Shown in pieces: positions 23,894 through 47,716 of a stretch of 50,015 bases of DNA. How positions within the stretch are numbered: position 1 is the first letter of the stretch; each line of letters opens with the position of its first letter. Made by a program: the position numbers and the translations under genes. The notes under the pieces were generated by a model, which saw only the letters and a list, made by a program, of their open reading frames with translations, did no database searches and was not told where the DNA came from. Origin of the DNA: Clostridia bacterium (lineage in GTDB: Bacteria > Bacillota > Clostridia > Christensenellales > Borkfalkiaceae); NCBI GenBank assembly GCA_017886545.1, contig JAGHJS010000089.1, positions 1-50,015 on the forward strand, in the 5' to 3' direction.

Positions 23894-23896
23894 CTT

Positions 23897-28951: not shown

Positions 28952-28954
28952 CGG

Positions 28955-30499
28955 TCAACCCTCCAGCGTCGAATACACGCAGAACGACTGCGCGGGGAGC
29001 GTATCCGTCAGCACCCTGCCGTCGCAGGAGAACCAGCCGTTCGCCGCGATCACACGGTTATCCGTCGGCACGTCGTTCATGTCATAAACGTAGCGCGCCA
29101 TGTGTTCGGGAAAGAGATTGCGGTTGAGGAAGGAAACGTTTTTCGTTGTTTCCGCGGTATTGACCACGCAATACGTCCAGTTTTCCCCGTCCGAGAACGC
29201 GACCGCGATGATATCTTCGTCCGCACATTCGATGGTATAGATGTCCATCCCTTTTTTGACAAAACGGGTGAGCATGGAGTACGAATAATACACGGGGCGG
29301 CAGGCATAATCCTCATCCGCACTGCCCCAAAGCCCCATCTTCGTGTTCATCGACGCAGAAGATTCATCCTCTTCGTCGTAGTAAAACTCATTGAACAGCA
29401 CCCAATAGCTCATACCCTGACTGCCCGCGTTGAACATGTTCAGCGCGATACGCGCCACCTGCAGCCCGCGCTCGGGCGATTTGAACTCCTCCTGGCTCGG
29501 ATTGTTCGTACCGAATTCCCCGAACACATGCGCTTTGCCGTACTTGTTCGCCGTATCCGCAAACGCCTTGAGGTTTTCGTCATACCCGTCGCCGGACATA
29601 TAAGCGTTGGAATCTTCCAGCGTATACGAATAATTGTGGGAATTGAGGATATCCGCGATCTCTCCGAGCTGATTGCCCGACTCTTCCAGCCAGGTCTTGT
29701 TCATCGTATCATCACTGAGGATGAACAGCACGTCGTCGCGCACGCCCGCCTCGGTAAATTCATCATGCATCGCCTGGCACATCTCCACGTAATCCGAAAA
29801 CACATACATCGCGTTCGGCGCATTGTAGGTGAGGCGGAAGGTGGAAGTCGGTTCGTTCACGGGCGTAAAATACTTGATGCAGGTGTAGCCGCGCTCGTTG
29901 ATGAGGTAATCGATAAGATCCGCGCACACCTCCGCAAATACGGTATGGTCGGTGCAGAGCGACCAGTCGTTTTCGGGATTGACCTTCATAAAGTCGGAAT
30001 CCCACAGCCACATCGTTGCGCACACTTCGATCCCGAACGTCTGCGCAACGTCGAGCATGGCGTAAACGCTTTTCATCTGATCGCTGTCCCAATCGTAATT
30101 TTTGGTCGTATATGCCTCTTCATCCGGACAATACCAGGACGTGAGGAACATCATGCGGAAAAATTCGATCCCCATCTCCGCAATGCGCCCTACGAACAGG
30201 TCGTTGAACACATCCCCGTCGATGTAATAGTTTTCGTCTTCGCCGATGATCGTCCTGCCCGCGTTCTGCGTATACCAGTACGGATCGAGCTCGGTACCGA
30301 CAAAGATCACTTCCTTTCCGTTCCCGTCCTGCGGGATCTCCAGCGCGAGCGAACCGTCGGGGACGGTCGTATTTGCGTTCGGATCGCCGTAGTCTTTCGG
30401 CTCATCGCCCGTTTCGGCGGGTCCGCATGCGGCGAACAGCCCCAGCAGCAGTACAGCCAACGCGATACAAAGGATCTTTTTGATCTTTCCTCTTATCAT
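28955..30499 (-). CDS. Secreted lipoprotein glycosidase, clan GH-A (GH5-like), first copy
   Basis: A 514-residue lipoprotein (signal peptide ending LFAAC; lipidated Cys25). The TIM barrel carries predicted acid/base Glu216 in FTPVNEPTST and nucleophile Glu328 in VFGEFGTNN. The strand pattern (IEFFRMMFLTSWYCPDE, CATMWLWDSDF, MSYWVLFNEF) and a C-terminal beta domain match the enzyme at 27359-28951. The two are related but far from identical, so this is old duplication with likely specialisation. As a surface enzyme it should cut polysaccharide to oligosaccharides for the ABC importer encoded upstream. The ATG has only a weak AAGAG site, and a hairpin lies just before it, so expression relative to the binding proteins may be reduced. 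Confidence 0.85.
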   Translation of the reverse strand: MIRGKIKKILCIALAVLLLGLFAACGPAETGDEPKDYGDPNANTTVPDGSLALEIPQDGNGKEVIFVGTELDPYWYTQNAGRTIIGEDENYYIDGDVFNDLFVGRIAEMGIEFFRMMFLTSWYCPDEEAYTTKNYDWDSDQMKSVYAMLDVAQTFGIEVCATMWLWDSDFMKVNPENDWSLCTDHTVFAEVCADLIDYLINERGYTCIKYFTPVNEPTSTFRLTYNAPNAMYVFSDYVEMCQAMHDEFTEAGVRDDVLFILSDDTMNKTWLEESGNQLGEIADILNSHNYSYTLEDSNAYMSGDGYDENLKAFADTANKYGKAHVFGEFGTNNPSQEEFKSPERGLQVARIALNMFNAGSQGMSYWVLFNEFYYDEEDESSASMNTKMGLWGSADEDYACRPVYYSYSMLTRFVKKGMDIYTIECADEDIIAVAFSDGENWTYCVVNTAETTKNVSFLNRNLFPEHMARYVYDMNDVPTDNRVIAANGWFSCDGRVLTDTLPAQSFCVYSTLEG

Positions 30500-32269: not shown

Positions 32270-32298
32270 GACTTTTTCTCCTTTCGGTAAGATCCTAT

Positions 32299-32318
32299 CT
32301 GCCCCGTCGGGGAGGCAG
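32299..32318 (-). other. Intercistronic stem-loop between the two binding-protein genes
   Basis: CTG-CCCC / GGGG-CAG with a three-base bulge forms an imperfect G+C stem in the 80-base gap between the duplicated genes. A second small palindrome, GCGGAGTTCCGC, lies just beside it. There is no U-run. A role in setting mRNA stability between the copies is possible. Confidence 0.4.
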
Positions 32319-32349
32319 CTTTCGGACGCGGAGTTCCGCACCCGACCTT

Positions 32350-34074
32350 TTATGCGATTTCAATGTTCCACAAGTTCTCGAAATATGTGATCGAACTCTG
32401 CGTCTGCTGCGTCAGAAAGTCGAGATAGTCGCCGCAATACTCATAAAAATACGGAATGTATTCTCCTGTCAGCAACTGCGACGGCGCCGTCGTCCCCTGC
32501 CCCGCCCACGCAGGACCCCGCACATACTGTACGAAATTCTGATCGATGATGCCCGCATGGTTGCGGATCGTGTTGTCTGTTATATCCGGCAGCCAGACCT
32601 CTTCTGTGGAATTGGAATCATACGCGGGGAAATCGTACCGCGCCGTGAGATACCACGCCTGCTCATCCACCGTATAATCGCCGCGCAGGCGGTTGGAAAT
32701 ATTGATATTTTCCAGCATCAGGTATTTGCCCGAATACGGCGGATTGAGCGTGAACTCTTCCCTGTTCGCAAGCGGGTACACCCAGGTTTCGTACTGTTCG
32801 CCGTTCCAGTCGATGGCGTCGCCTTCCTCCCAGTGCACACCTTTCACGCCATACAGGCAAAGTTCGTAATTTTCTTTGGAAGAATACTGCCAGTCAATAA
32901 ATTTCAAAAGCACTTCGGTATCCGTATCGCGGTGGTCGGGAATGATAAGCGCTTCGGAAGCTTTAATATCCTTTAGATTTCCGCGTACGATGCCTTCGCC
33001 GTTGTGTTCCGCTGCGTACGCCTGTCCTTCTTCGGTAATGTCGTCCGCGATGGGTGCGATCATGATATAGTCCAACTGCGGGTCGATGCTCTCCACCGTG
33101 CGCATGGAGGAAATGAGATATTCCACGTCGGGATAGGAAAGATATACGGCGGAAAGCCCCGAAGCGAACCAACCGATCCTGTCGGTGTCATCGACTTGCA
33201 GCGATTCGTTCTCCCATATCCCATCTTTGGACCATTTCCACATATAGTCGAGCATCATCTGCCCGCCTTCGGTGAAGTACCCCGGAACAACCGTCCCGTC
33301 CTCCTGAATGACATTTTCGCCGTAATAGCCGAGCAGCGTACCGGCGAATATCCGATTCAGATCCCACGGCTTTGCGGCAATGGGGTAACGCAGATTCGTA
33401 TATTCGTCCTGGATCGCATACATCAGGTCCTCGAACTGGGTAAAAGTCATGTTCTTGTACCCTTCGTTCAGAACGTTATAATCGTCCGGATCCAGCCCCG
33501 TTTCATCCTGCACGGCGCGCATCATGTCTGCGTTGACGATCATCGCGTAACCGCTGTCCGGCGTCACCGCGGGGATCATGCGCATCTGATAGTCCGCTTC
33601 GTCCATCGTCCCGATGGGAACGTAGGCAGACATCTCCACTTCATGCTGCGGATCGTTCATCCGGATGGCATTGAGGATGTTCGGATAGTCCTCTATATGA
33701 TCGGTAAGATCGATGACGATATCGCGCTCCGCCTTCGCATACGGCATGACGATCGCGCCGGAGTCTTCACCGATATACGAAATGACCGCGTCCAGATCCT
33801 GCGTATATACGCCCATGCCGGTGGAAACGCGCTGCTCCAATTCACTCTGCGAATAGATCGTGACCTGCAGATCGATCGAAATACCGGTGTCTTCATAGAA
33901 CTTTTCTTCGATCGCCTCTTTAACCACGTCGTCCTGCGTGCCGTCCGCCTGTCCGGACGAACGTTCACGGTATACGGTGATGACATATTCGCCGCCCGAG
34001 CCGCCTCCGCCGCCGCAGGCGCAGAACCCGAACAGCATCAGTGCAGCCAGAACAATTACTAAAATCTTTTTCAT
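32350..34074 (-). CDS. ABC sugar-binding lipoprotein (first of two near-identical copies)
   Basis: A 574-residue extracellular solute-binding lipoprotein. The signal peptide ends FCAC with a predicted lipidated Cys20 and a following GGGGSGG linker. The two-lobed binding domain shows the pattern of CUT1/Lpl-type proteins (YVITVYRER at the start, VRGPAWAGQG near the end). The ATG follows AGGGGG. It lies 14 bases after the second permease gene, the usual place for the binding protein of such importers. The nearly identical paralogue downstream implies a recent tandem duplication. A binding protein this large (family mode about 430-560) often recognises longer oligosaccharides. Confidence 0.93.
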   Translation of the reverse strand: MKKILVIVLAALMLFGFCACGGGGGSGGEYVITVYRERSSGQADGTQDDVVKEAIEEKFYEDTGISIDLQVTIYSQSELEQRVSTGMGVYTQDLDAVISYIGEDSGAIVMPYAKAERDIVIDLTDHIEDYPNILNAIRMNDPQHEVEMSAYVPIGTMDEADYQMRMIPAVTPDSGYAMIVNADMMRAVQDETGLDPDDYNVLNEGYKNMTFTQFEDLMYAIQDEYTNLRYPIAAKPWDLNRIFAGTLLGYYGENVIQEDGTVVPGYFTEGGQMMLDYMWKWSKDGIWENESLQVDDTDRIGWFASGLSAVYLSYPDVEYLISSMRTVESIDPQLDYIMIAPIADDITEEGQAYAAEHNGEGIVRGNLKDIKASEALIIPDHRDTDTEVLLKFIDWQYSSKENYELCLYGVKGVHWEEGDAIDWNGEQYETWVYPLANREEFTLNPPYSGKYLMLENINISNRLRGDYTVDEQAWYLTARYDFPAYDSNSTEEVWLPDITDNTIRNHAGIIDQNFVQYVRGPAWAGQGTTAPSQLLTGEYIPYFYEYCGDYLDFLTQQTQSSITYFENLWNIEIA

Positions 34075-34088
34075 AGCGTGCCCCCTGT

Positions 34089-34964
34089 TTATTCTTTGAC
34101 GCCGCCCATCGTGATGCCCGTAATGAAATACTTCTGCAAAAACGGATACAGGCAGATGATGGGAAGGGTCGAAACGACGACTGCCGCCATTTCACCGCTT
34201 TCGGAAGGAATAATGCGCCCCGTCGTATTGTTTGCCGCAAGGTTTGCCATCAGATCGCTCATCTTATTCACGACCAGCTGCAGCGTATAATTCCCCTCCG
34301 ATTCGAGGTAAAGCAACGGGCCTGTGTAGCTGTTCCACTGCGATACAGCCACAAAGAGGCAGATCGTAGCGATAATGGGCTTGGACAGCGGCACAAAAAT
34401 ACGGGTGAGGATCGTAAACTGCCCGGCACCGTCGATCTCTGCCGCCTCTGAAAGCGAATTGCTGATGGTGACGAGGTAGTTACGGATGAGGAACGTGTAC
34501 CACGCGGCGATCAGCCCGGGGATGATGATCGACCAGAGCGAATCGCGGAAAAACGTAGTCACGATCAGATAGTTCGGCACCAGCCCGCCGCTGAACAGCA
34601 TGGTGATGACCAGATACAGATTGAAGAACTTTTTCCCCTTGAGTTTGGGGTGACGCAGCGCGTATGCGTATAAAAAACATACCGACGTCGTCAGAACGAC
34701 GCTCACCGCCGTGACCCAAATGGTATTCCAGTACGCCTGCAAAAAGGGCAGGTCCGACGAAAAGATAAATTCGTAGGCGTATACAGAAAATTCGGCAGGG
34801 ATCAGGTTGTAACCGTTCACCAAGAGAGAGGTCTCCGAAGTAAACGACGAACCGATCACCAAAAGATACGGATAAATAAACATGACGGAGAACAGGCACA
34901 TGAGGATGATGTTGATAACATTGAACACCCTGCGCCCTACCGTTTTGTTTTTGACCATAGCCAT
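34089..34964 (-). CDS. ABC sugar permease, LplC-like
   Basis: A 291-residue inner-membrane permease with about six transmembrane helices. The cytoplasmic EAA loop that docks on the ATPase is EAAEIDGAGQFTILTRIFVP (about residues 177-196). LVNGYNLIPAEFSVYAYEFIF and the C-terminal FITGITMGGVKE are typical of the LplC/YtcP group of CUT1 importers. It pairs with the permease encoded ten bases upstream to form the channel. No ATPase gene is in the window, so the transporter probably borrows a shared ATPase of the MsmK/MsiK kind. The ATG at 34962-34964 follows GAGGTG. Confidence 0.93.
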   Translation of the reverse strand: MAMVKNKTVGRRVFNVINIILMCLFSVMFIYPYLLVIGSSFTSETSLLVNGYNLIPAEFSVYAYEFIFSSDLPFLQAYWNTIWVTAVSVVLTTSVCFLYAYALRHPKLKGKKFFNLYLVITMLFSGGLVPNYLIVTTFFRDSLWSIIIPGLIAAWYTFLIRNYLVTISNSLSEAAEIDGAGQFTILTRIFVPLSKPIIATICLFVAVSQWNSYTGPLLYLESEGNYTLQLVVNKMSDLMANLAANNTTGRIIPSESGEMAAVVVSTLPIICLYPFLQKYFITGITMGGVKE

Positions 34965-34973
34965 TCCGTCACC

Positions 34974-36050
34974 TCACCAAAGCGGATTCGCGTCCAGTTT
35001 TTTGACGAGCCAGTTCGCGCCTACCATCAGGATCAGCCCGACAATGCTTTGCAGGAAGGTGACGACCGTTACCTGCCCGTAGTTCCGGAACCCGCCGAGC
35101 ATAGTGCTGTACGCCCAGGTCCCCAATACATTTGTCGTTTCCCCAAGCAGGTCGCTGTTCCCCGTGATCGTATAGATCTTTTCAAAATCGTCGCGGACGA
35201 TGTTCGCGACCGTAAGCGTGAATGTGATACCGATGACAGGCATGATACCCGGAATCGTTACGTGCCACGTCTGTTTCCACCGCCCGGCACCATCCATTTC
35301 TGCCGCTTCATACAGCGTGGGATCGATGCCGCTGATCCCTGCAAGGAAGGTGATCGTACCCCAACCTGTCGTCTTCCAGATCCCGACAAACGTCAGGATC
35401 CACGGCCACCACTTCGGTTCGCTGTACCAACTCACGCGTACCCCGAACAGATCTTCAAGCACATTGTTGATAATGCCCATATCCCTGCTGAAAAAGCTGT
35501 AAACGATCGTTGCAACGATTGCCCAGCCGAGAAAATACGGCAAGTATGAAATGGTTTGCACCGCTTTTTTGAAAGTCTTGTTGCCGAGTTCGTTGATGAG
35601 GAGCGCCAGCACTATGGACGACGGGAACGCAAAGATCAGCCCCAACAGCCCGAGCCAAAGCGTATTACGCAACAGCTCCCAGAACCCATAGGTCGCAAAG
35701 ACTGTTTTGAAGTGATACCAGATATCCCCGTTCACGCCCCATGGACTCTCCCACAGACCGTACTTCGGGATATAATCGCGGAACGCGAGCGTGATGCCGT
35801 ACATCGGAACGTATGTAAAGATCAGCAGGATCACGAACCCGGGCAACAGGCACAGATAGAGCGACCAGTAGCTTTTCAGGTACGTGCCGGCCTTACGGAG
35901 TTTTACGCCGCGCGGCTTCGGAGCAGCTGCCGCCACGGCCGCAGCGCCTCCTTCCTCCGTCCCGGTTGCTGTATCCGTTTTGTCCGGAACTGCATTGCCG
36001 TGCAGCTCTTCGGGCTCAAACGTTTCTTCCTTCCTCATCATTTTTTTCAT
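34974..36050 (-). CDS. ABC sugar permease, LplB-like
   Basis: A 358-residue permease. A cytoplasmic leader of about 60 residues rich in Glu, Thr and Ala precedes the first helix (SYWSLYLCLLPGFVILLIFTY), and about six helices follow. The EAA loop reads YEAAEMDGAGRWKQTWHVTIP. VPMYGITLAFRDYIPKYG and the C-terminal VGANWLVKKLDANPLW are hallmarks of the LplB/YteP group. The long acidic N-terminal extension is unusual for the family. The ATG at 36048-36050 follows GGGAGG; the frame is open further upstream, but that part runs through a hairpin. It is the first permease of the import operon and follows the large lipoprotein gene after 92 bases. Confidence 0.92.
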   Translation of the reverse strand: MKKMMRKEETFEPEELHGNAVPDKTDTATGTEEGGAAAVAAAAPKPRGVKLRKAGTYLKSYWSLYLCLLPGFVILLIFTYVPMYGITLAFRDYIPKYGLWESPWGVNGDIWYHFKTVFATYGFWELLRNTLWLGLLGLIFAFPSSIVLALLINELGNKTFKKAVQTISYLPYFLGWAIVATIVYSFFSRDMGIINNVLEDLFGVRVSWYSEPKWWPWILTFVGIWKTTGWGTITFLAGISGIDPTLYEAAEMDGAGRWKQTWHVTIPGIMPVIGITFTLTVANIVRDDFEKIYTITGNSDLLGETTNVLGTWAYSTMLGGFRNYGQVTVVTFLQSIVGLILMVGANWLVKKLDANPLW

Positions 36051-36078
36051 ATAGTTTTCTTTCCTCCCGTCATAGTTC

Positions 36079-36106
36079 AGGCAGACCCCGCGAGCGGGGT
36101 CTGCCT
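36079..36106 (-). other. Strong intercistronic stem-loop before the permease genes
   Basis: A perfect 13-bp inverted repeat (AGGCAGACCCCGC at 36079-36091, GCGGGGTCTGCCT at 36094-36106) with a minimal loop lies between the large lipoprotein gene and the permease genes. Leftward it is followed by GAACTATG, not a U-run. It is probably an mRNA-stabilising or processing element that separates high expression of the lipoprotein from lower expression of the permeases. Confidence 0.65.
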
Positions 36107-36142
36107 GCCCCATTGACCGATTCTTTTACGGCATGTTTTATG

Positions 36143-39100
36143 TTATGCGACCGTCGCGGTCTCCGCCTTCACGGAGAGCACCGTCAGCGTGCCGCTGCCG
36201 AGCATCTGCACACCGATGCCGCCGTCCGTCAGCCCTGCATTACCGCCGACCAGCCAAGGATAAACGTTGATAGCCGCCGCATAGCCTTGGTTGCCGGTAG
36301 AATACGAGTAATCATACATCACGCCATCGATCCCCGCAAAATCACTGTTGCAGCCCGTAGAACCGGTACGATAGATGTACACATTTTCCCAATTCGAGCC
36401 GTCCGTGCTGAACTTCAGTGCGATATTGATCGCTTTGACATTGTCATTATCATCCAACACATAGCTGACTGCAATGTTAAGGTAGAACGGATCCGTACCG
36501 AGGAAAGCATCCAGATAATTGGTGTTATCGCCGCTTCCGCCCGTCGTACCGGCTTGTTCTTTTATCCAGCCGATGGTCGTTCCTCCGGCCTTGATCGTCG
36601 CATAGCCTTTTCCGTAACTGGAATCGCCGATTACGAGGTCAATGCCGTCGTCGCCCGTACCGAGCAAACGGATCTGCGCATTTACGTTCGTGCCGTCCGC
36701 CCATGCTTCGGAGAACTGCAGCTTCAGCGTAACCGACTGCAAGGTATTATCCGAGAGCGAACGGGTCGTGCCTGTAAGCATCGTGTAACCTTCATCCGCA
36801 GAAGTGACCTGCGCCACAGGAGTAGCTTCATCAGTATCGTCAACAACCCCCGAACCGCCCGCAGGCAATGTGGGATACGCCGCCGTAGCCGCCGTGCAAC
36901 CGTCAGGCAGATCTTCTTCCGTAACGGAGGTACCGTCCACGCGCAGCGCCGCGATGGTCATATTATTTTCAGTACCGCCGAAGCCGCTGTTCGTGCTGAC
37001 CTGCAGGTTACCGCTGTACAGCGAATGATCATAGGTACCCGTGATACCGTTAGCGCCCGTCTTGGGGATCATGATACCGCCGCTGTAACCCGCCGTCGTA
37101 CCGAGCACGCCCATAGCAGAATCATCCGTCGTAGCGCGCAGCTCTACATCGTTGACCCACAGCTGTACGAGGATATAATCCGCATCCTGATAGGTCACGT
37201 CGGTAAGCTGGTACTCGAATTTTACAAACGTATTATCAGCCTTGTACGCATCCCAACCCGTCCAGGATTCAAAGAAACCGTAGCGCCAACCGTTCCAGCC
37301 GCCGACGCGAAGCTGAATGTACCCGTCCGTAATGCCGAGGATAATGCCGTCCGGCCAGTCGTAATTCGTGGAGGCGCCACCCGCAAGCTGCATCATGATG
37401 TTCCAGCCGTCCGCCGAAATGTACGCATTGAGCCACATCGAAACTTTCTGACGGAACACTTCTTCACCCGTATAGCGCCAGTTGCTGTTGTTACGGATAT
37501 TCACCGCCTCTGTAAGCACGTTGCCCTCAGCGGCATGCGCAACGGTGAGCGTAACGGCTTCTTCCGCGCGATTGCCCGTGCTGTCCTCCGCATAATAGGT
37601 GAGCGTGTAGGTGCCCGCCGCCTGCGGCACAAAGGTCGTCAGCTGCCCGTTAGCAAAATAGTTCGCATACGATTCGGGGCCGCTGATCGCCAACCCGAGC
37701 GTAATGCCGTTCGGATCGGTCGCATCGCTGACGGACACATCGGGCAACGTAACTGCCTGCCCCACCGTACCCGTAAGGGCATCCGTGGAAAGATCGATCA
37801 CAGGGTCGTCGCTGTCGGCAAATTCAAGCACGCGTACCGTATATTCGACCCAGTTGATATTTTGCGCCTCGTCTGCCGCTTCGTACGATACATAATAGGT
37901 GCCCGCTTCCGTGAAGGTATAACTCTTCGCCGTGGAGAGGTCGGTGATTTCCGCGACCTGCTTCCTTTCCGCATCGTAGATGTGCACGAGCACGGAGGGA
38001 GCCGTTGCGCCGTCGGCAGCCGTCGCCGACGGGAGCGTAAACGCTTCGTTGATGACCGCGATGGTCTCGGGCACTTCGGAAACGGTAATGACGGGCGGCG
38101 TTGTGTCTGCAAATTCCGTTTCACCCTCTTCATACGCATAAATGCCGCGGATGTGCATTGCGTCATCGTTCCAGACGCCTGCTTCCGTATAGTTGCCGGA
38201 GAATGCGCCGAAGTTCAGGTATCCATACGGGTTGTTCCAGATGACCTCGAACTGGCTGGCGACCAATTCGCCCGTGCCGCTGTTGCTCGTCGATTCGCCG
38301 CAGATGATCTCGGCAGCCATCGTGGGCTCCTCGGTCGGAAGCGTATCGAACCATACGTTGAACACGATGCGCGCGCCTTCCGTATCGTAGGCTTCGTCCG
38401 TCGCACGTTCTTCGCCGACATAGCGCAGTACCTGCATGTACATGACATGAACATTCCCGTCCCTGTACGTTGCCGAATTGTATGCATTGCCGCCTGCCTG
38501 ATTGCCGCTGCCGTCCAGGAAAACCTGCGTAGCGATCGTCGAGAAGCGCAGCACCACGCGCGGCGCGCCGGCGCTTTCATTCCCGTCGGGGATCAGACTG
38601 TTATAGTTCCTCGAAGAAACATAGTTGATATAGAAGTATTCTTCCGGAGCATCTGTCATCGGATCGATCGTGAACACAGTCGAAACGTACTCGCCCTCTT
38701 GGAACTTATACCCTGCCAACGTAGCGGTGGAATTGTCGCCGTCCTGCGCGGTCGTAGACGTTTTGCCGACGACCAGTTCGCCGCGGGAATTGAACGTAAC
38801 GTCATTGCCGATCACGATCGAACCCGTGCTGAGCAGGTTGCCCGCATAGCGCTCTGCCGTATCCGAAACGGCAACGGAGATGCTCTTGCTTTCCGCCGCA
38901 TTGCCCGCCGTATCCGACGCCGTATAGGTCACCGTATAGTTGCCCGCGGGCAGATAGAAGCGCACGCCCTGCGTAGCATACGACGTAACGTTGTTCGATG
39001 CCGTGCCATCCGTCTCCGAAACCGTAACGCGCAGCGCCGTCGCCGTGATGTCTGCATCCGTAGGCGCATCTGTAACGGTCGCCGTCGGGAGCAGAACGCC

Positions 39101-39571
39101 CTGTGCGGACGTCGTAGTGATCGCATCCGACGAGGAGAGCGTAATGACGGGAGCCTCGGTATCCGCCTGCACGGCGATCTTGAACTCTTCCGTATCGGAA
39201 AGCCCCGTGCCCGGATCCTGTGCTCTGTAGATCACCTGGCATTCCGTTACATCGGCGGGAACGGTGAACGAACGGGTCGTCGTCGCCGCCTGTTCCGTCA
39301 TCGCCGTACCGGAGTTTCCGTTGCTCCTTGTTGTCGTCACTCTTACCCCGACCGTGATCGCCGAGCCGTCGGCAGCGTTCGTAGACGTAGCCGTCGGCAG
39401 GTTGATGGTCTGTCCTACATAGGCGGTATCAGGTATTTCGTATTCGGTTCCCATCGTGATGACGGGTGCGTCGCTGCCCGTCTCCTCGGGATCGCCGCAG
39501 CCTGCCAATACCGCAAAAGCCATTGCCAGCACCAGTAGAATTGAAACAATTTTTAATAATCGTTTCTGCAT
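36143..39571 (-). CDS. Large Ig-like / glycan-binding-like lipoprotein heading the import operon
   Basis: A 1142-residue lipoprotein (signal peptide ending LAGC; Cys25). It is built from alternating modules. Short Ig-like domains (about 35-130, 140-235, 515-610, 615-715) contain lines such as PVITLSSSDAIT and GTYTLTYYAEDSTGNRAEE, a pattern of surface Ig-like repeats. Long beta-rich segments (about 240-510, 730-900, 940-1142) contain many Trp, Tyr, Asn and Gly and resemble LamG/concanavalin-type sandwiches. No catalytic motif was seen. As first gene of the transport operon, it probably binds polysaccharide at the surface and hands it to the hydrolases, a Gram-positive counterpart to the surface glycan-binding proteins of Bacteroides. 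GGAGGGG precedes the ATG. A leader of about 370 bases separates it from the best promoter candidate. Confidence 0.85.
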   Translation of the reverse strand: MQKRLLKIVSILLVLAMAFAVLAGCGDPEETGSDAPVITMGTEYEIPDTAYVGQTINLPTATSTNAADGSAITVGVRVTTTRSNGNSGTAMTEQAATTTRSFTVPADVTECQVIYRAQDPGTGLSDTEEFKIAVQADTEAPVITLSSSDAITTTSAQGVLLPTATVTDAPTDADITATALRVTVSETDGTASNNVTSYATQGVRFYLPAGNYTVTYTASDTAGNAAESKSISVAVSDTAERYAGNLLSTGSIVIGNDVTFNSRGELVVGKTSTTAQDGDNSTATLAGYKFQEGEYVSTVFTIDPMTDAPEEYFYINYVSSRNYNSLIPDGNESAGAPRVVLRFSTIATQVFLDGSGNQAGGNAYNSATYRDGNVHVMYMQVLRYVGEERATDEAYDTEGARIVFNVWFDTLPTEEPTMAAEIICGESTSNSGTGELVASQFEVIWNNPYGYLNFGAFSGNYTEAGVWNDDAMHIRGIYAYEEGETEFADTTPPVITVSEVPETIAVINEAFTLPSATAADGATAPSVLVHIYDAERKQVAEITDLSTAKSYTFTEAGTYYVSYEAADEAQNINWVEYTVRVLEFADSDDPVIDLSTDALTGTVGQAVTLPDVSVSDATDPNGITLGLAISGPESYANYFANGQLTTFVPQAAGTYTLTYYAEDSTGNRAEEAVTLTVAHAAEGNVLTEAVNIRNNSNWRYTGEEVFRQKVSMWLNAYISADGWNIMMQLAGGASTNYDWPDGIILGITDGYIQLRVGGWNGWRYGFFESWTGWDAYKADNTFVKFEYQLTDVTYQDADYILVQLWVNDVELRATTDDSAMGVLGTTAGYSGGIMIPKTGANGITGTYDHSLYSGNLQVSTNSGFGGTENNMTIAALRVDGTSVTEEDLPDGCTAATAAYPTLPAGGSGVVDDTDEATPVAQVTSADEGYTMLTGTTRSLSDNTLQSVTLKLQFSEAWADGTNVNAQIRLLGTGDDGIDLVIGDSSYGKGYATIKAGGTTIGWIKEQAGTTGGSGDNTNYLDAFLGTDPFYLNIAVSYVLDDNDNVKAINIALKFSTDGSNWENVYIYRTGSTGCNSDFAGIDGVMYDYSYSTGNQGYAAAINVYPWLVGGNAGLTDGGIGVQMLGSGTLTVLSVKAETATVA

Positions 39572-40117
39572 TTTATCCCCTCCGTTTTTTATTCATTCCA
39601 TTTATAAAACAAACCCGAGCACTCTCCATTACGGCGGTTGCTTTATAAATGCAACTTCCATGCTATGTGTTCCGCCGTTCCGGCATAGAAAAGAAAGAGC
39701 CTCTTCCTTTTTTGCCTATGAGCGGGGAAACTGTTCGTTCTTATGTGCGAAACACGGGCAGATTTTTTAAAAATTTTATCATCTTCCCTGCCCGACAGAA
39801 GCATCTGCGGTATCGCCGTTTATTGGCGCATCCGATGCTTGTTTCGGAAAATTCCGCTCTTTAATGCCGCCGCACCCTCTTTTTCCGCTTTTATCCTTTC
39901 GCTACCCTGAAACAATCCGACATTTTCTGCAATTTGTTCACGCATAGATTGTAGCATAGCATTTTTCGAATTTCTTGCTCATGATTATCAACTTATTGCG
40001 GAATATTATCATATCTCCCTTCCGCTCTTGAAATTTTAATTTTTTGGAATTACACTAATTCCGTTCTTGATACATATACTGCTTTTTGCACAACGGACCG
40101 AACACGGGAATTTCTCT
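39572..40117. promoter_or_regulatory. Divergent control region between import operon and AraC-hydrolase operon
   Basis: This 546-base A+T-rich region has no credible gene. Leftward, an extended -10 (TGC then TACAAT, 39948-39956) is the best promoter candidate and would give a leader of about 370 bases. That leader contains two stems: AAGCATC/GATGCTT (39799-39805, 39834-39840) and CGGGCAG/CTGCCCG (39755-39761, 39788-39794). A dyad GTTGC-N9-GCAAC lies at 39637-39655. Rightward, TATACT at 40075-40080 is 38 bases before the AraC-hydrolase ATG, but its -35 is poor, as expected for an activator-dependent promoter. AraC-type binding sites probably lie here, but no clear pair of repeats was identified. 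Confidence 0.55.
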
Positions 40118-42073
40118 ATGCGATACTGTAAACACGAACATGACTTTAAACGTCCGGACGACGAAGTAAGTTTCCATTTTTTCAATGCGAACTACGGCGA
40201 TCTCCACTATCATAACTATTGGGAAGTTTTTCTGATCCTGGACGGGACGCTGCTTCACAACATCAACAATCACTCCATGATCATCCAAAAAGGCGATCTT
40301 TTCATCATCCGCCCGAAAGATGCGCACGTTTTTCTGCGTTACCGCAACTTTTCTTCCCAACATATCAATTTAATGATTACCGACACGGCGCTGTACTCCA
40401 TGCTGAACACGATCGATCCTTCCCTGTACATGCAGCTTTTGTGCCATCCGAACTATATCCGCACCACGCTCACCCCCGCGCAATACGAGCGCATGAGCAC
40501 ACTGATCGATTCCTTGTATAAGCCGACGGAACTTCCTATCGCTTCCGTTATAAAATTCCTGATCCTCGAAGCGATCTCCGATTGCTACATGAACGGAAGC
40601 ATCCGCAACGAAAGTTTTACCGTAAATTCCATGCCGGAGTGGCTCACGCAGCTGCTGAACCGCATGCATTCGCCCAATAACATGGGGCTTTCCTTCCATG
40701 AACTGTGCGCGCCCGTCAATTTTTCGCAGGTGCACATCAACCGTATGTTCAAGCAATACATGAATGAAACGATCGGCAACTACTTTCAATCCGTTAAAAT
40801 GGAGTACGCCGCCAAACTATTGGAGACGACGGACTTTTCCGTTCTGGAGATCAGCTCCAGGATCGGATACTCCTCCCTTTCGCATTTCATCCATGTATTC
40901 AAAGAAAAATTCAATTGTTCCCCAAAGGAGTACAGAAGAGTGAGCAACCCGCAAGGCAAACAGAAACAGCCGCTGCCCACCTCGAAAAAAAACGAAGCGG
41001 CAACGCGGTTCGGCACAAATTATTACAGTTTATTTTCCTGCACCTTTACGGCTGAAAACGAATATGACTTTCAGCCCGCAGAACGCGGGTTGGCTGTTTT
41101 GGCGGAACACAATATCCATGTGGTCCGTTTCAACGCGTCCGGATTTTATTATCCGAACGACATGCGCCGCTATTTTGCGGATAAAAACGCCTATTTCGAC
41201 GCGCTGCACAAGCTCACGCATCTGGCGGAAATGTATGACATCCGCCTGATCCCCTCTTTTTTCTGGCAGATGACCTGTCTGCCGAACCTGTTCGACGAAG
41301 GATACGAAACGGGATGGGGAAATCAGAAAAGCAACACTTTCCGCTTCATGACAAACTTTACGAAAGAGTACGTGTCGGCGCTCGCAAAGGAAAAAAATAT
41401 CGCCTTCTGGGAGTTCGGAAACGAATTCAATCTTGTTGCAGATCTTCCGAATTTTGAACAAAATTTAAAGACGGATCCCTTGCCCGCCGGCAGCGCACGT
41501 TCTGCACGCAGCGCCCAGGAGGACAAACTGACCACCTCGGGGGTAAACGGCGCTTTCGCGGAATTTGCCAGAATCGTCAAACAGGAAGACGCCCTCGCGC
41601 GTCCTTCGGGGAACGGGAATGCATTCCTGCGCCCTTCGCAATACAATCAATACGCGCACAATACTTTTACGCACGATACGCTTGACGAACACGCAGCCGT
41701 CTGGAAGCTGCTTTGTCCCGCCCCCATGACCTGCGCTTCGGAGCATATCTATCATCCGGATTGGGAAAAACCCGTCATGTACGGAAACCGCGCCGTATCG
41801 CTGGAAGAATACCTGCGGTTCAACAAACAGCTGTGCGACAAAAACGGCTATACGTATTACATCGGCGAGTACGGCGCCATACAAAAAAAAGACCCTTCCG
41901 ATTATTCCGGTTGGGCAGAGATGAGCGAACTGTTCCGAAAATGCGGGATCCCCCTCGCACTCGTATGGAACTATGATCCCGATGAAATCATTGAATACAG
42001 TTTTTCCGAAAAGAGTGCGGAAGGAAAATACATCCTTCGTACACTGAAGGAACTGAATAAGGAGGAACCTTAA
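40118..42073 (+). CDS. AraC-type regulator fused to a clan GH-A glycoside hydrolase domain
   Basis: A 651-residue fusion with no signal peptide. Residues 10-85 form a cupin-like sensor (HYHNYWEVFLILDG, MIIQKGDLFIIRPKDAH). Residues 172-275 are a complete AraC DNA-binding domain with both helix-turn-helix units (FSQVHINRMFKQY; ISSRIGYSSLSHFIHVFKEKF). A Gln/Pro/Lys linker (276-298) leads to a TIM-barrel domain (299-651) of clan GH-A with both predicted catalytic glutamates: Glu436 in FWEFGNEFN and Glu584 in YYIGEYG. The late tryptophan in ALVWNYDPDE is also kept. GH5 is the closest reading. It probably binds imported oligosaccharide and controls the divergent import operon. AraC-GH39 fusions are known to me, so the principle has precedent. 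The ATG at 40118 has a weak GGGA site. It overlaps the next gene by one base (TAATG). Confidence 0.9.
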   Translation: MRYCKHEHDFKRPDDEVSFHFFNANYGDLHYHNYWEVFLILDGTLLHNINNHSMIIQKGDLFIIRPKDAHVFLRYRNFSSQHINLMITDTALYSMLNTIDPSLYMQLLCHPNYIRTTLTPAQYERMSTLIDSLYKPTELPIASVIKFLILEAISDCYMNGSIRNESFTVNSMPEWLTQLLNRMHSPNNMGLSFHELCAPVNFSQVHINRMFKQYMNETIGNYFQSVKMEYAAKLLETTDFSVLEISSRIGYSSLSHFIHVFKEKFNCSPKEYRRVSNPQGKQKQPLPTSKKNEAATRFGTNYYSLFSCTFTAENEYDFQPAERGLAVLAEHNIHVVRFNASGFYYPNDMRRYFADKNAYFDALHKLTHLAEMYDIRLIPSFFWQMTCLPNLFDEGYETGWGNQKSNTFRFMTNFTKEYVSALAKEKNIAFWEFGNEFNLVADLPNFEQNLKTDPLPAGSARSARSAQEDKLTTSGVNGAFAEFARIVKQEDALARPSGNGNAFLRPSQYNQYAHNTFTHDTLDEHAAVWKLLCPAPMTCASEHIYHPDWEKPVMYGNRAVSLEEYLRFNKQLCDKNGYTYYIGEYGAIQKKDPSDYSGWAEMSELFRKCGIPLALVWNYDPDEIIEYSFSEKSAEGKYILRTLKELNKEEP

Positions 42074-43890
42074 TGTTCAAACACAAGAGTAAGGGCATGT
42101 TCCTTGTTTTCGCCGCCGCCCTTCTGGCAGCATCGCTGGCACTCGGCGCAGCCGCTCCCGCTGCGGCGGCGGAAGAGGGATATGCGGAGCTGACCACGGT
42201 ACGCATCGCCGAATACGACGGAAAGGATGAGGACTGCGACACGCTGATCGTCTGCCTGGACGAAGAGCTGAATGTGACCGACCGCAGCGGAAACAGCCTC
42301 GGCACCCTTGACGGGCTGCAGACGGATGCGGTCCTTTGTTACTACATCAAAGACGAACAGACCGCCGCGGCGTTCGCGCAGTATGCCGCCGAACATTCGC
42401 TGCAGACAGGCATGATCCTCTCCGACGACCCCGCCTGCGTGGCTGCGGCACGCAATGCAAACGCCGCCTGTCTGAACCTTTCGGGCGCGGTCGACTTCCG
42501 CGGCAAGACGCCGACGGTCGCCGAAGTGCAGAGTGCCGTCAACGCAAACATGGCAAAAACAGCTCTGTTCGACGCGTCGTTTTTGACCGCAGAAAAGGTA
42601 CGCACACTTCAAAAACTCCTTATCAACGTATGGTGCGACGCGCAGACCGAAGCGGAAGCGTACAGTGCGCTCGCATACGGCTGTACGGGTATCCTGTCAC
42701 GCGCGCTGGACCTTGCCGCCGCCGTTACGGGCAGTGAGTATGCCGTGCTTTCTCCCCGCCCCATATTGGTCGCGCACCGCGGCTGCAGCGAAGGCGCGGG
42801 ACGGGAGAACCTTGAAAACACCGTCGCCGCCGCAAAACTTGCATATGAGCGCGGCGCTGAGGCCGTAGAGATCGACGTCCATGTCACGGCGGACGGTCAT
42901 CTCGTTATCATGCATAACGACACCATCCAGGGAACGACAGACGGTTCGGGATACATAGAACAGCTTTCTCTGCAGGATCTGCGCCGTTACAAGGTAAACG
43001 GCACGGAGGAGATCCCCCTGCTGACCGACTATTTTGAAGAATTTCAGGACGACGATCTCTATTTCTTCATCGAGATCAAATCTTCCAAGACAAACGTCGC
43101 GGCAAAGCTGAAAGAGGCGATCGACGAATACGGCATGCAGCAGAAATGCAGCTTCATTTCCTTCAACGGAACACAGCTTGCCGCCTGCAGATCTTTGATG
43201 CCGGAAATCTCCGTCGGCTACCTGGACGGCAGCATCGTCTGTGCCAACGAAAACGATGACAGCGTTGCCGCGTACACACAGCAGGTGATAGCAAAATGCA
43301 ACGCGCTCAACACAAGTTATCACGGGGATTACAACGTGCTGACCGACCGCGGCATCCGCTCACTGGCGGCACAGAGCGTCGCGACAAACGTATATACGCT
43401 GAACACGTCGCAGGAATTGTTCTCCTATTACGCAGGCAAGGGGGTCGCAAGCGTCACGACTGACTACGCCGTTTGGCTGCAAAACTATGCGCAGGCACTC
43501 ACCGCCGTCGACGATACCGTGACGGGAACCCCCGCAAACCTGTACGCACACTGCACAACTTTTGGCGGCGGCTCCCTCGATTACCGCGCGGAGCTCATCC
43601 TTCTGGACGGGGAAGACGCCGTTTCGCGCGAACAGGACGGCTATGCCGCTCTGCGCACGCAGGACGTAACGGCCGTTGCCGTCATCAACTGCTACGATGA
43701 AAACTATCAGCTGCAATTCACGCTGCTCAGCGCGCCCTTCACGTTGCATGTGCAGGCAGCAGGCGGGTTGGACACGGTTTGGATCGTCCTCATCGCCGTC
43801 GCGGCGGCAGCCGTGCTCCTGTGCGCGGGATATTTTGTGTTCCGAGCCGTAAAAAAACATTCAAAAAAACATACTGACGGAGAAAAATGA
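42073..43890 (+). CDS. Membrane-anchored glycerophosphodiester phosphodiesterase
   Basis: A 605-residue protein with a signal peptide (1-33), an N-terminal region (35-228), a GDPD catalytic domain (about 230-480), a short beta domain and a C-terminal transmembrane helix (about 566-588) with a basic tail. The catalytic domain has HRG at 235-237, ENLENT at 245-250, EIDVH at 267-271 and HND at 281-283, which supply the metal ligands and catalytic histidines. The enzyme should hydrolyse glycerophosphodiesters outside the cell. The N-terminal region contains TPTVAEVQSAVNAN and YGCTGILSRALD stretches that look like a second, catalytically dead barrel fragment. GGAGG lies eight bases before the ATG, which overlaps the upstream stop. 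Its stop overlaps the next start in an ATGA. Confidence 0.9.
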   Translation: MFKHKSKGMFLVFAAALLAASLALGAAAPAAAAEEGYAELTTVRIAEYDGKDEDCDTLIVCLDEELNVTDRSGNSLGTLDGLQTDAVLCYYIKDEQTAAAFAQYAAEHSLQTGMILSDDPACVAAARNANAACLNLSGAVDFRGKTPTVAEVQSAVNANMAKTALFDASFLTAEKVRTLQKLLINVWCDAQTEAEAYSALAYGCTGILSRALDLAAAVTGSEYAVLSPRPILVAHRGCSEGAGRENLENTVAAAKLAYERGAEAVEIDVHVTADGHLVIMHNDTIQGTTDGSGYIEQLSLQDLRRYKVNGTEEIPLLTDYFEEFQDDDLYFFIEIKSSKTNVAAKLKEAIDEYGMQQKCSFISFNGTQLAACRSLMPEISVGYLDGSIVCANENDDSVAAYTQQVIAKCNALNTSYHGDYNVLTDRGIRSLAAQSVATNVYTLNTSQELFSYYAGKGVASVTTDYAVWLQNYAQALTAVDDTVTGTPANLYAHCTTFGGGSLDYRAELILLDGEDAVSREQDGYAALRTQDVTAVAVINCYDENYQLQFTLLSAPFTLHVQAAGGLDTVWIVLIAVAAAAVLLCAGYFVFRAVKKHSKKHTDGEK

Positions 43891-45767
43891 ACATGATCGC
43901 AAAACGCTTTTCTTTACTGAAACTGCTTCTGTGCTGTATCCTCTCCTTCGGGCTGCTTCTTCCGGCGCTTGTATGCGTGCAGCCCGTGTCCGCCGCCGGC
44001 GCGACAAACTCGTACAGCACCGCCGCAAAACAACGCATCGGCGAAAAGTATGCGGGGCTCGTTTCCGATGAAACACTGCAGGCATTGCAAAGCGCGGACA
44101 CGGCGGAGAGCGGCAACGTCGCCGCCGAAACCGTACTCGAGGAGGCAAAAGGGAACAAACTTTTTACTTTCGCCGTCATGAGCGACGTACATATGAACGT
44201 AGACGGCCACGGCGACGCCACCCCTAACGGCGCCCCGGGCGATACGGACGTGCAGTTCCAGAACGCGCTCAACGGGCTGTACCGCACCTTCCCCGAAACG
44301 CAGCTGCTCATCGTGGACGGCGACATCACCTGCAACGGCATGGAGGCGGAATACCAAAAATACCTTATGCCCATCCTCAACTACGACATCCCCGTCCTTA
44401 CGGCGATCGGCAACCATGAATACCGCATCAATGAGACCATCGACGGTGTGAGTTACAGCCGCGATTCCCGCGACCCCGAAGAGCTGGAACGGCTCTCTGC
44501 CCTGACGCGGACGCGTTTTTTGGACACGATCAACGAATACTTTGAGAACAAGGGCATGCCGACCACCGACAAAGTGTACTATGACCGCTACTACGGCGGC
44601 TACCACTTTATCCTGCTCGGGTCCGAAGCCCGTACGAACGATACGTCGGCAACCAAGGTCATGGGCGAAGCCTCCGTCATTTCGGACGAACAGATCGCCT
44701 GGCTGCGCGAAAAACTCGCCGAAACCGACCCCGATCAACCCGTATTCGTCATGACCCACAATCCGCTCAACAATACGGTCACGGAGAGCGAAGATTACCG
44801 CTGGGGACTGGGCGCAGAGGCCAGCGAACAAATCAAAGAAGTGCTTGCCGACTACCCGCAGGCGATCGTCATCAGCGGGCATGTACATAACGGCTACATC
44901 GGCGACGAAGCCACGGTCGTCACTTCGTACGGAACTTTTCTCGACCTGCCCGCCTTTGAGTATAACGTGTTCGACAACATTGCGAACGACATCGGGTATA
45001 TTGCAGACATCTACGACGGATGCGTGCTCTTCACCCCCTACGACTTCACAAACGAGCGCCCGCTGTACGAAGGGATCGTACGCGTAGACAGAGCCGTATC
45101 CGAAACGCTGGCGACCGCGTACGACAAAGACGGCACCGCGGCTCCCGACGGAAACGGGAGCATGATCCTGGATCTGCAGGGCGAAACAAAGGTGGACGGG
45201 CTGCGCGTGATACCCGCAGACGGCGAAACACTGCTTTCGTATAAAGTGGAGATCAGTTCGGATAACGTAACTTACACTACTATCGCCGAAGGCACATTCC
45301 TGAACGACCCCGCGACCAACAATGTATTCGGCTCGGATACGGATTCGTTGACAAACAAAATTTTCTTTGACAAAATATATACGACACGCTATATCCGCTA
45401 TACCACGACCGAAGGAACCTGCGAACAGCCGACGCTTTGTGCTACTTTCCTCGGCGAGGACATGAGTGAACTGCGCGCGCTGTACCGCAGCATTTTGACT
45501 GCGGGCGAACAGAAAAGCGAAGCGCTGGCTGCGGCAATGGCACAGGCGAAATCGGTCATCGAAAACAGAGATTCGGATGCGGAGACGATCGCCGCAGCCC
45601 TGCAGGCGCTGCAAAGCGCGTCCGGCACGGACACGCCGCAGAGCCCCGCAGACAATACGGCGCTCATCGTCGGGCTGAGCGTGGCGGCGGCCGTCGTCGT
45701 CATTGCTGTCGTGACCGCCGTGATCCTTATCAAAAAGAAAAAATCAGCCTCCAAAAAAGAGGACTGA
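43887..45767 (+). CDS. Membrane-anchored calcineurin-like metallophosphoesterase
   Basis: A 626-residue secreted protein. A signal peptide (1-37, ending VSAA) is followed by a metallophosphoesterase domain (about 90-350) with every hallmark: MSDVH (Asp100, His102), DGD (144-146), GNHE (175-178), MTHNP and the SGHVH pair. Next is a discoidin-like (F5/8 type C) beta domain (about 400-520; LRVIPADG, YKVEISSDN, TRYIRYTTT), then a helical FIVAR-like bundle, a transmembrane helix (about 598-618) and a Lys-rich tail. It probably removes phosphate from an extracellular substrate, perhaps the product of the phosphodiesterase, while the discoidin-like part may bind glycan. It overlaps the upstream gene by four bases (ATGA). 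The alpha-galactosidase follows after 35 bases. Confidence 0.9.
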   Translation: MNMIAKRFSLLKLLLCCILSFGLLLPALVCVQPVSAAGATNSYSTAAKQRIGEKYAGLVSDETLQALQSADTAESGNVAAETVLEEAKGNKLFTFAVMSDVHMNVDGHGDATPNGAPGDTDVQFQNALNGLYRTFPETQLLIVDGDITCNGMEAEYQKYLMPILNYDIPVLTAIGNHEYRINETIDGVSYSRDSRDPEELERLSALTRTRFLDTINEYFENKGMPTTDKVYYDRYYGGYHFILLGSEARTNDTSATKVMGEASVISDEQIAWLREKLAETDPDQPVFVMTHNPLNNTVTESEDYRWGLGAEASEQIKEVLADYPQAIVISGHVHNGYIGDEATVVTSYGTFLDLPAFEYNVFDNIANDIGYIADIYDGCVLFTPYDFTNERPLYEGIVRVDRAVSETLATAYDKDGTAAPDGNGSMILDLQGETKVDGLRVIPADGETLLSYKVEISSDNVTYTTIAEGTFLNDPATNNVFGSDTDSLTNKIFFDKIYTTRYIRYTTTEGTCEQPTLCATFLGEDMSELRALYRSILTAGEQKSEALAAAMAQAKSVIENRDSDAETIAAALQALQSASGTDTPQSPADNTALIVGLSVAAAVVVIAVVTAVILIKKKKSASKKED

Positions 45768-45802: not shown

Positions 45803-47716
45803 ATGATCCCCTTTTCCTTCCGATACGGTGACCGCCGTATCCGCTCAGACGAACTCTCCTTCCGCATCATGACCGCCGAAGAGGACGGCGTAAAAAAGGA
45901 GACCGCGACAGCCTTGCTCGGCAGTCTGACGGTCACACGCGAAACGCTGTACTACCCGGAAGGCCCCGCAAAGGCGCTCACCTATTTTGAAAACACTTCC
46001 GATACGGACACAGAACAGATCGCGGACGTGCTGGACTTAGACAGCGAACTCGCATGGGATGCTCCCTCCCTGCCCGACGGGTACCGCGGATACGGGAACG
46101 CCGCTTACCTGCGGCTGAAAAAATATTTCGGCTCGAACAACAACGATAAGGAGTTCGCCACGGATATCAACGTGCTCCGCAACGGGCAGTGCGAACGCTT
46201 CGGTTGCCATGACGGACGCAGTTCGCAAGGATACGCCCCCTTCTTCGCCGTCGTAAACGATAAAAAAACAGTACTGTGCGCCGTCGGCTGGACAGGCGAA
46301 TGGCGGGCGCAAGCTGAAAAGCATGAAAAAGCGCTGCACCTTTCCGCAGGTATTCCGGACCTGAACTTCAAACTGTTCCCCGGCGAAAAAGTCCGCACGG
46401 CATCGGTCATGCTCTATGAAACAAGCGAGGGCGAAGCACAAGCACACAACACTTTCAAGCGCACGCTGAAAAACCGCCTTGTACCCGAAGCAGTACGGCG
46501 GCAGGGGCTTCCCTTCTTTCTCTCCTTCTGGGGCGGAAGTTCGACGGACTTCATGCTCCGCCAGCTGGAAACGATCCGTAAAAGCGATGCGGGCGTGACG
46601 GGATTTTGGGTAGACGCCGCCTGGTACGGCGAACGCGGCTCGCAGACACGCAGCGAATTCGGCGACGGCTGGTGCAGGCAGACGGGCAACTGGACGGTCA
46701 ACGAAGAGATCCATCCCGACGGCCTTGAAGCGGTATTCAAAAAGGCGAAGGAATGCGGATTGCGCACGATGCTTTGGGTAGAACCGGAGCGCTGTTACTG
46801 CAAAAGCGAACTTGCCAAGCGCCACCCCGACTATTGCCTGAAAGAAACCGACCACAGCGAATATTACCTCCTTAATTACTCCGATCCCGCTGTCGTCGAT
46901 TATGTGTACGATCTTCTGAGCGGTATCATCCGCCGTCTTGGGCTGGATCTGTACAGACAGGATTTCAACATGGATCCGCTCGGCTTCTGGAGCGTAAACG
47001 ACGAACCGGATCGCAAAGGCATCCACCAAATCAAGCACATCATGGGCATGTACAGCCTATGGGACAGGCTGCGCGAAACTTTCCCCGACCTTGTGATCGA
47101 TAACTGTGCCAGCGGCGGGCGGCGGCTGGACATCGAAACACTCTCCCGCTCCGTTCCGCTCTGGCGAAGCGATTACCAGTGCGAATTTGACTGCGCCCCC
47201 TTCTCCGCGCAGAATAATATGATGGGCATTTCACAATGGATCCCCTATTCCGCAACGGGAACGGGCTTCGGCGTGACGGACACGTACCGCGTGCGCTCCG
47301 CTTACTCCGCCGGGCTATGCAGCAACTTCTTCGGCTACGAAAGTTTTGCGCCGGAAACGATCCCCGACGAACTGAAAGCACTTGCCGCTGAATGGAAGCG
47401 CATCTGCCGCTTCTTCTCCTGTGACTACTACCCCGTATTCGGTTTGCCCGTCACCGAATACGCCTGGGGCGGCTGGCAATTCGACGACCCCGAGAGCGGA
47501 GACGGCATCCTGATGGCGTTCCGCAGGGAAAACTGTCCCACCGACCGCGCCACGGTACAGCTCGGCGGGCTGCGGGAAGACGCAACGTACGAATTCACGG
47601 ATGCCGACACAAACGAACGCTTTACCATAAAAGGGAGCGACCTTAAAAAGAACGGTTTCACGATATGCCTGCCGCAGAAGCGCAGTTCCAAACTGATCGA
47701 GTATAAAATCGTATAA
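45803..47716 (+). CDS. Alpha-galactosidase, GH36
   Basis: A 637-residue cytoplasmic enzyme that removes alpha-linked galactose. The N-terminal beta-supersandwich (1-225) is followed by the TIM barrel (about 235-570), with nucleophile Asp387 in LYRQDFNMD, acid/base Asp457 in LWRSDY, and the diagnostic NCASGGRRLD at 434-443. The C-terminal beta domain completes the fold. It is shorter than the 720-residue classical GH36 because of a trimmed N-terminal domain. There is no signal peptide, so it should act on imported galactosylated oligosaccharides. AAGGAG lies nine bases before the ATG. Last in the AraC-hydrolase operon, and followed by a strong hairpin. With the two beta-mannosidases it points to galactomannan-like substrates. 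Confidence 0.93.
   Translation: MIPFSFRYGDRRIRSDELSFRIMTAEEDGVKKETATALLGSLTVTRETLYYPEGPAKALTYFENTSDTDTEQIADVLDLDSELAWDAPSLPDGYRGYGNAAYLRLKKYFGSNNNDKEFATDINVLRNGQCERFGCHDGRSSQGYAPFFAVVNDKKTVLCAVGWTGEWRAQAEKHEKALHLSAGIPDLNFKLFPGEKVRTASVMLYETSEGEAQAHNTFKRTLKNRLVPEAVRRQGLPFFLSFWGGSSTDFMLRQLETIRKSDAGVTGFWVDAAWYGERGSQTRSEFGDGWCRQTGNWTVNEEIHPDGLEAVFKKAKECGLRTMLWVEPERCYCKSELAKRHPDYCLKETDHSEYYLLNYSDPAVVDYVYDLLSGIIRRLGLDLYRQDFNMDPLGFWSVNDEPDRKGIHQIKHIMGMYSLWDRLRETFPDLVIDNCASGGRRLDIETLSRSVPLWRSDYQCEFDCAPFSAQNNMMGISQWIPYSATGTGFGVTDTYRVRSAYSAGLCSNFFGYESFAPETIPDELKALAAEWKRICRFFSCDYYPVFGLPVTEYAWGGWQFDDPESGDGILMAFRRENCPTDRATVQLGGLREDATYEFTDADTNERFTIKGSDLKKNGFTICLPQKRSSKLIEYKIV

Follow-up and report, generated by a model that had tools for sequence, protein, structure and literature searches.

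A predicted AraC-type regulator joined to a GH5 mannanase-type barrel in a putative beta-mannan locus of a Clostridia bacterium

Can a transcriptional regulator destroy the sugar that switches it on? The question is raised by a gene of a Clostridia bacterium (GTDB family Borkfalkiaceae) located in a 50,015-nucleotide stretch of contig JAGHJS010000089.1 (assembly GCA_017886545.1; the window). An initial annotation, made from the DNA letters and their open reading frames, described its product as one cytoplasmic polypeptide joining a cupin sensor, a full AraC DNA-binding domain and a clan GH-A barrel, and suggested that it might act as a self-resetting sugar sensor, perhaps with chain-length discrimination. 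The relevant features are collected in Table 1. The 651-residue frame is open throughout, and no signal sequence is visible on direct reading of its N-terminus, in keeping with the proposed cytoplasmic location. The DNA-binding domain is indeed complete (HTH_18, 69.9 bits against a Pfam cut-off of 33.6, E = 2.3e-19). The cupin was also recovered, with Cupin_2 (27.5 bits, cut-off 27.2) and AraC_binding (21.3 bits, cut-off 21.1) both scoring barely above their thresholds, and it may be the sole sensor of the protein. ChbR is the best NCBIfam match of this N-terminal half (E = 9e-19 over residues 27–274); however, the score of 68 bits compares with a cut-off of 264, and the ChbR model covers 280 positions and includes no enzyme domain. 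The N-terminal half is therefore not a ChbR.

Table 1. Positions of the fusion gene, its domains and key codons, neighbouring genes and upstream elements in the window.
Feature	Positions	Strand	Basis
Fusion gene, 651 aa (cupin, AraC HTH, GH5-type barrel)	40118..42073	+	open frame, Pfam, PDB match
Cupin stretch, residues 28–72	40199..40333	+	Pfam PF07883
AraC-type DNA-binding domain, residues 196–274	40703..40939	+	Pfam PF12833
GH5-type (beta/alpha)8 barrel, residues 298–651	41009..42070	+	PDB/profile matches, AlphaFold, Foldseek
Glu436 codon, predicted acid/base	41423..41425	+	alignment, AlphaFold model
Glu584 codon, predicted nucleophile	41867..41869	+	alignment, AlphaFold model
Trp617 codon, conserved late tryptophan	41966..41968	+	alignment, AlphaFold model
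GDPD-family protein, signal and C-terminal membrane segment	42073..43890	+	Pfam PF03009; signal and membrane segment read directly
Calcineurin-like phosphoesterase with F5/8 type C domain	43887..45767	+	Pfam
GH36 alpha-galactosidase-like protein	45803..47716	+	Pfam PF02065; PDB AgaB E 8.6e-36
Divergent surface protein, Ig-like/PKD stretches	36143..39571	-	Pfam; 70% conserved in L072
Two ABC permeases and two putative substrate-binding lipoproteins	30545..36113	-	permeases PF00528; binding proteins by inference, without Pfam match
Two exported GH5-like proteins	27359..30499	-	one PF00150 E 6e-5, just below cut-off; other without match
Two GH2 enzymes with HAD-family protein between	20739..26320	-	23897–26320 beta-mannosidase-like
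Tandem direct repeat, candidate operator; half-sites 39975–39989 and 39996–40010 (TTGYNNNNNATTATC, 21 bp apart)	39975..40010	+	repeat family D1
Promoter-like hexamers just downstream of the repeat	40028..40056	+	9/12 matches; weak

A second species, represented by the metagenome-assembled genome (MAG) 'uncultured Clostridia bacterium isolate E01__bin319' (locus L015), encodes the same fusion in the same divergent locus, at 73.7% identity over 650 residues; HTH_18 is found in this second protein, and Cupin_2 reaches 23.2 bits, under the cut-off. The same locus was also retrieved as L017 from genome G468, which belongs to the genus of the window, and L015 lies letter for letter inside locus L072 of G468, so that the fusion-bearing genomes are two rather than three. 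Between the two fusions, identity is 79% over residues 1–170, 85% in the HTH part and 70% in the GH part, and falls to 37% in the linker (7 of 19 aligned residues).

Additional GH5-type fusions were sought in four overlapping samples. Protein searches returned matches in 4 of 396 genomes of the order (the source genome included), 6 of 301 of the family and 9 of 391 of the class, all examined for fusion by full-length tblastn over the retrieved loci, and a profile search of the phylum returned matches in 32 of 398 genomes, for which ORF sizes were compared across L041–L069. No GH5-type fusion beyond those of the source genome (G000) and G468 emerged from these order, family, class and phylum searches. 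Reading by eye revealed no AraC part in the whole of L041 or in the first 330 residues of 12 other phylum loci. Frames of 655 and 666 residues in genome G1073 resembled fusions by size, and the one read (L041) proved to be an exported enzyme. Two scans of viral contigs found no relative, and the source genome holds no second fusion, as only the window's among its 17 HTH_18 matches lies in a frame of more than 500 residues. Among the genomes searched, the GH5-type partner is found in only two, both of one genus. Elsewhere in the source genome (C76, about 34200–34914; L005/L089), an AraC-like match is split between a long frame carrying residues 3–218 and another frame of 61 residues carrying the HTH end, perhaps a broken or misassembled regulator gene.

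The barrel resembles GH5 mannanases in both sequence and predicted fold. Residues 298–647 match PDB 8d89_A ('Glycoside Hydrolase Family 5 Endo-mannanase') with an E-value of 1.4e-32, and the barrel alone matches it at 3.7e-33 with both catalytic glutamates aligned. A profile made from 13 GH sequences reaches 8d89 at 9e-89 and, far more weakly, 3wh9, 1qno and other GH5 mannanases (1e-9 to 1e-8). The closest solved relative by sequence and fold, 8d89 nevertheless shares only about 25% identity with the barrel; its 405-residue chain is matched from residue 77, and no AraC part is reported for it. Presumably it belongs to subfamily GH5_57. The Pfam GH5 model PF00150 scores the fusion protein below the cut-off (E = 0.95) and the closest unfused relative (L155:7018-8292) above it (39.1 bits, cut-off 23.5), and no NCBIfam model matches the barrel.

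An AlphaFold model of the barrel built from three sequences (window, L015 and L016; pLDDT 67.7, pTM 0.74), with low confidence at positions 139–175 and in the last 31 residues, has strands at 2–4, 38–42, 79–86, 134–138, 199–202, 242–249, 282–290 and 317–319 (domain numbering), plus two extra short strands at 256–263. These eight modelled strands are the number expected of a (beta/alpha)8 barrel. In clan GH-A the acid/base glutamate follows strand 4 and the nucleophile glutamate lies on strand 7, and the modelled residue placement is that of the clan, with Glu436 (139) right after strand 4, Glu584 (287) in strand 7, Arg337 (40) in strand 2, His543 and Tyr545 (246 and 248) in strand 6 and Trp617 (320) after strand 8. 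The best Foldseek match of the model is again 8d89 ('a novel GH5 enzyme retrieved from capybara gut metagenome'; E = 5.3e-17, TM 0.73/0.68); the GH1 glucosidases and GH5 enzymes that come next, likewise of clan GH-A, reach TM values of about 0.5. The initial assignment of a GH5-like clan GH-A barrel is supported by this prediction, in which the barrel is present and the glutamates are in place. A model of the whole protein from two sequences was uninformative (pLDDT 41.8).

Both glutamates occupy the positions first proposed for them, within the motifs WEFGNEFN (Glu436) and YIGEYG (Glu584), and, like Trp617, they are kept in all 13 aligned barrels, a conservation that speaks against the pseudo-enzyme considered at the outset. 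The 24 columns invariant in 11 unfused relatives, which include both glutamates, are all kept in both fusions, and for this reason the barrel is likely to be an active enzyme; the window also keeps 42 of the 44 columns conserved in at least 10 of the 11. The GH parts of the two fusions differ at 107 of 354 residues. Values of dN are 0.23 for the GH part, 0.13 for residues 1–170 and 0.09 for the HTH part, while dS (1.3 to 4.3) is saturated and unreliable. Judged from these alignments, the GH part is constrained yet changing faster than the regulator part.

In a tree of the 13 barrels, the fused pair groups together (100/100) and is joined by L010 (from G241, a member of another family of the order) and L016 (a Bacteroidia MAG) to form a set of four (99/99), inside which the branching order is less sure. 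Read by eye, 7 of the 11 unfused relatives begin with a signal or lipoprotein-like sequence (L010, L016, L018, L022, one of two copies in L024, L011 and L013) and two do not (L019 and the other copy in L024); the remaining two (L023 and L026) start outside the retrieved piece and are uncounted. The fusion probably arose within this lineage, when a mannanase-type gene became attached to an ordinary AraC gene.

The repeat in the 546-bp intergenic region of the window consists of TTGCTCATGATTATC and TTGCGGAATATTATC, direct copies with a spacing of 21 bp that are 71% alike and represent one of five short direct-repeat families in the region. Short two-copy repeats often arise by chance. Upstream of the L015 fusion, 29 of the 32 bases of the block at 39981–40012 recur (blastn E = 7e-8), and a 22-bp block over the promoter-like hexamers is conserved at 20 of 22; there the repeat site separates the fusion from a divergent GH2 gene. 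A tandem pattern derived from the two sequences, with up to three mismatches allowed, occurs once in the source genome and is absent from the reversed control. No further operator copies were found in the window or the source genome, and control of the divergent operon therefore rests on the one tandem repeat. A half-site scan, with its pattern one base out of register, gave 10 matches against 6.6 expected by chance; scans for promoters (7 sites versus 3.5 expected) and terminators (8 versus 3.7) are given little weight. AraC-family activators typically have a pair of direct half-sites, separated by about two helix turns, next to a promoter. The tandem repeat is likely to be the binding site of the fusion regulator and is the best candidate for autoregulation and for control of the divergent genes.

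The fusion gene heads a series of catabolic genes that overlap or lie close together, and its end overlaps the start of the GDPD-family gene. On the divergent side, the two exported GH5-like proteins share 30% identity, each has a 41% identical counterpart in G241, and the leftward genes further include those for an EamA-type transporter, a GH78 rhamnosidase and SIS and ROK proteins. L072 retains its counterparts of the surface protein, fusion, GDPD, phosphoesterase and GH36 genes at 63–79% identity, with a GH2 gene (40%) adjoining the fusion. In G241 the neighbours of an unfused barrel gene are related to the binding protein, to both exported GH5-like proteins and to GDPD; SASA and CE2 esterases also occur there. 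Relatives of GH2b and of the binding protein stand beside the unfused barrel gene in 4 of 11 loci (L156, L157, L160 and L161), a set that excludes L072 and L155 and in which several others are short or show the barrel gene only. The mannoside setting described initially is borne out, as a beta-mannoside neighbourhood, by the GH2 beta-mannosidase-like and GH36 relatives nearby, and the gene content as a whole indicates beta-mannan breakdown and uptake as the theme of the locus. Its enzyme set resembles the one described for colonic Bacillota, which comprises a GH5 or GH26 endo-mannanase, GH36, GH2 mannosidase, CE2 and oligosaccharide import (PMC13278490).

The coupling to phosphoesterases that had been highlighted is real, but it belongs to the wider neighbourhood of the enzyme rather than to the fusion as such, given the GDPD genes beside the unfused relative in G241. 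A phosphodiesterase-type gene adjoins the barrel family in three settings: a GDPD gene in the window (42073–43890) and in L072, two GDPD genes in G241 (L155:9643-14361), and a PF01663 phosphodiesterase in the Bacteroidia MAG (L016:3165-4118). A phosphate-bearing glycan may be a target. Other features of the window include two adjacent putative binding-protein genes (30545–34074) that are 86% identical over 573 residues, a recent tandem duplication, and a lipoprotein-like ORF (11832–14555, plus strand) whose translation contains many His/Cys-rich repeats (HTFxxxWTYNxTHHWHAATC-like). The left end carries genes for a phage-type terminase large subunit (PF03237; 2819–4282, minus strand) and a serine resolvase (PF00239; 9384–10073, minus strand), which suggest remains of a prophage or mobile element.

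The explanation that we favour overall, tentatively and at a little under an even chance, is a one-component AraC-type regulator of a mannan locus with a captured, active and signal-clearing GH5 mannanase-type domain. A regulator of a beta-mannan locus, probably of galactomannan type, would have captured this domain at its C-terminus. The cupin half would bind an imported oligosaccharide and the HTH half the tandem 21-bp repeat at 39975–40010, and the protein would activate its own operon and probably also the transport and hydrolase genes that diverge from it. The barrel, having become cytoplasmic, would cleave imported manno-oligosaccharides; inducer and substrate would therefore probably be the same or related, and the regulator would help to clear its own signal. 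The sequence itself shows that regulator and barrel are fused, that the active-site residues are intact and that both the operator-like repeat and the locus are conserved; enzyme activity, ligand and DNA binding are predicted. We infer the substrate of the barrel from its neighbours and one solved relative. The weakest step is that hydrolysis resets the switch, although such self-resetting feedback is plausible.

Alternatively, the barrel could work inside the cell as an active mannanase or mannosidase and be linked to the regulator in one polypeptide simply for the sake of co-expression, its hydrolysis having no regulatory role. The position of the fusion at the head of a catabolic gene run would suit such an arrangement, as would the poorly conserved linker between the halves. 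However, regulators are normally made in small amounts, which would make for a poor enzyme supply, and the recurrence of a comparable architecture with GH39 barrels hints at a functional link. We consider this alternative unlikely, though it fares best among the competing explanations.

The existence of AraC–GH39 fusions, mentioned in the initial annotation, is confirmed by 47 examples. A GH39 search gave matches in 12 of 149 genomes of the phylum, 78 of 167 of one family and 1 of 101 of another family. The examined loci contain 60 ORFs with a GH39 part, of which 47 also have an AraC HTH (L098, L099, L107–L149, L151 and L152; frequent in one family of the phylum); the 13 not counted as fusions include the hand-chosen L150, which has no HTH match. 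Pfam confirmed the architecture in the two scanned, L098 (839 residues) and L099 (828 residues). In this biased sample of best-scoring loci plus 20 hand-chosen, mostly lower-scoring ones, 35 of the 47 fusions keep the WNE acid/base motif and the nucleophile glutamate, and 12 have lost WNE (L099, L137, L138 and L141–L149). In three of the 12 (L145, L148 and L149) the nucleophile motif is missing from its aligned position as well, the alignments of L148 and L149 being weak.

These proteins share with the window's fusion the order of parts in one polypeptide (cupin, AraC HTH, clan GH-A barrel). They differ in that the barrel is GH39 rather than GH5-like, in coming from other families of the phylum, and in being about 190 residues longer owing to a full C-terminal GH39 unit; PF01229 (GH39) has no match in the fusion protein or elsewhere in its genome. 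By these domain assignments, regulator–glycosidase fusions are common in one family of this phylum at the least, and the general architecture is not new. Searches of the literature, mostly outside subscription journals, found no report of AraC/HTH–glycosidase fusions by title or visible abstract, nor did they turn up a sugar-sensing circuit whose signal duration is built into a single protein. The long staphylococcal AraC proteins Rsp and AryK were considered as precedents and set aside; in the part of PMC7241556 consulted, no hydrolase domain is named.

Since 35 of the 47 AraC–GH39 fusions keep both motifs, an intact enzyme on an AraC regulator appears to last elsewhere. Some of the other barrels look non-catalytic, and the loss of the acid/base motif in 12 fusions implies that such barrels can become mere ligand-binding parts; to judge from its motifs, the set grades naturally from enzymes to apparent pseudo-enzymes carried on a transcription factor. 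By analogy with these decayed examples, in which the barrel itself is kept, the GH5-type domain might be an added sensor that binds oligosaccharides and tunes the AraC half without meaningful turnover, its catalytic residues persisting through ligand contact or the youth of the fusion. The lower conservation of the GH part relative to the regulator part accords with such a role, and because only two closely related fusions are known, the conservation of the glutamates could reflect youth. Retention of the complete invariant set in both fusions argues against a sensor-only role, and we judge a purely ligand-binding barrel marginally less probable than an enzyme tethered for co-expression.

The remaining explanation, an assembly or frameshift error joining two separate genes, might draw on the 11 of 13 aligned barrels that have no joined AraC domain and on the nearest AraC paralogue in the source genome (C60), which seemed to align into the start of the GH part and in fact stops right after the HTH, but it is extremely improbable and was rejected, because a second assembly has the same joint, across which the two proteins are 74% identical; this for practical purposes excludes both chance and misassembly.

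Returning to the favoured reading of a regulator with an active, captured mannanase-type domain, its strictest form is a self-extinguishing transcription factor that would turn on the mannan locus upon sensing an imported manno-oligosaccharide and would itself hydrolyse this inducer, so that the lifetime of the signal is set by the regulator's own turnover. We regard this form as rather doubtful. If it is true, the AraC–GH class (GH5-like here, GH39 elsewhere, some members with dead active sites) would form a natural series from inducer-destroying switches to pure sugar sensors of enzyme build. Whether catalysis and regulation are coupled can be tested by comparison within the AraC–GH39 proteins, 35 with intact and 12 with decayed active-site motifs, and the GH5-like case adds a second, apparently separate origin. 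If the two are coupled, the duration of a sugar signal would be built into one protein, yielding a compact circuit.
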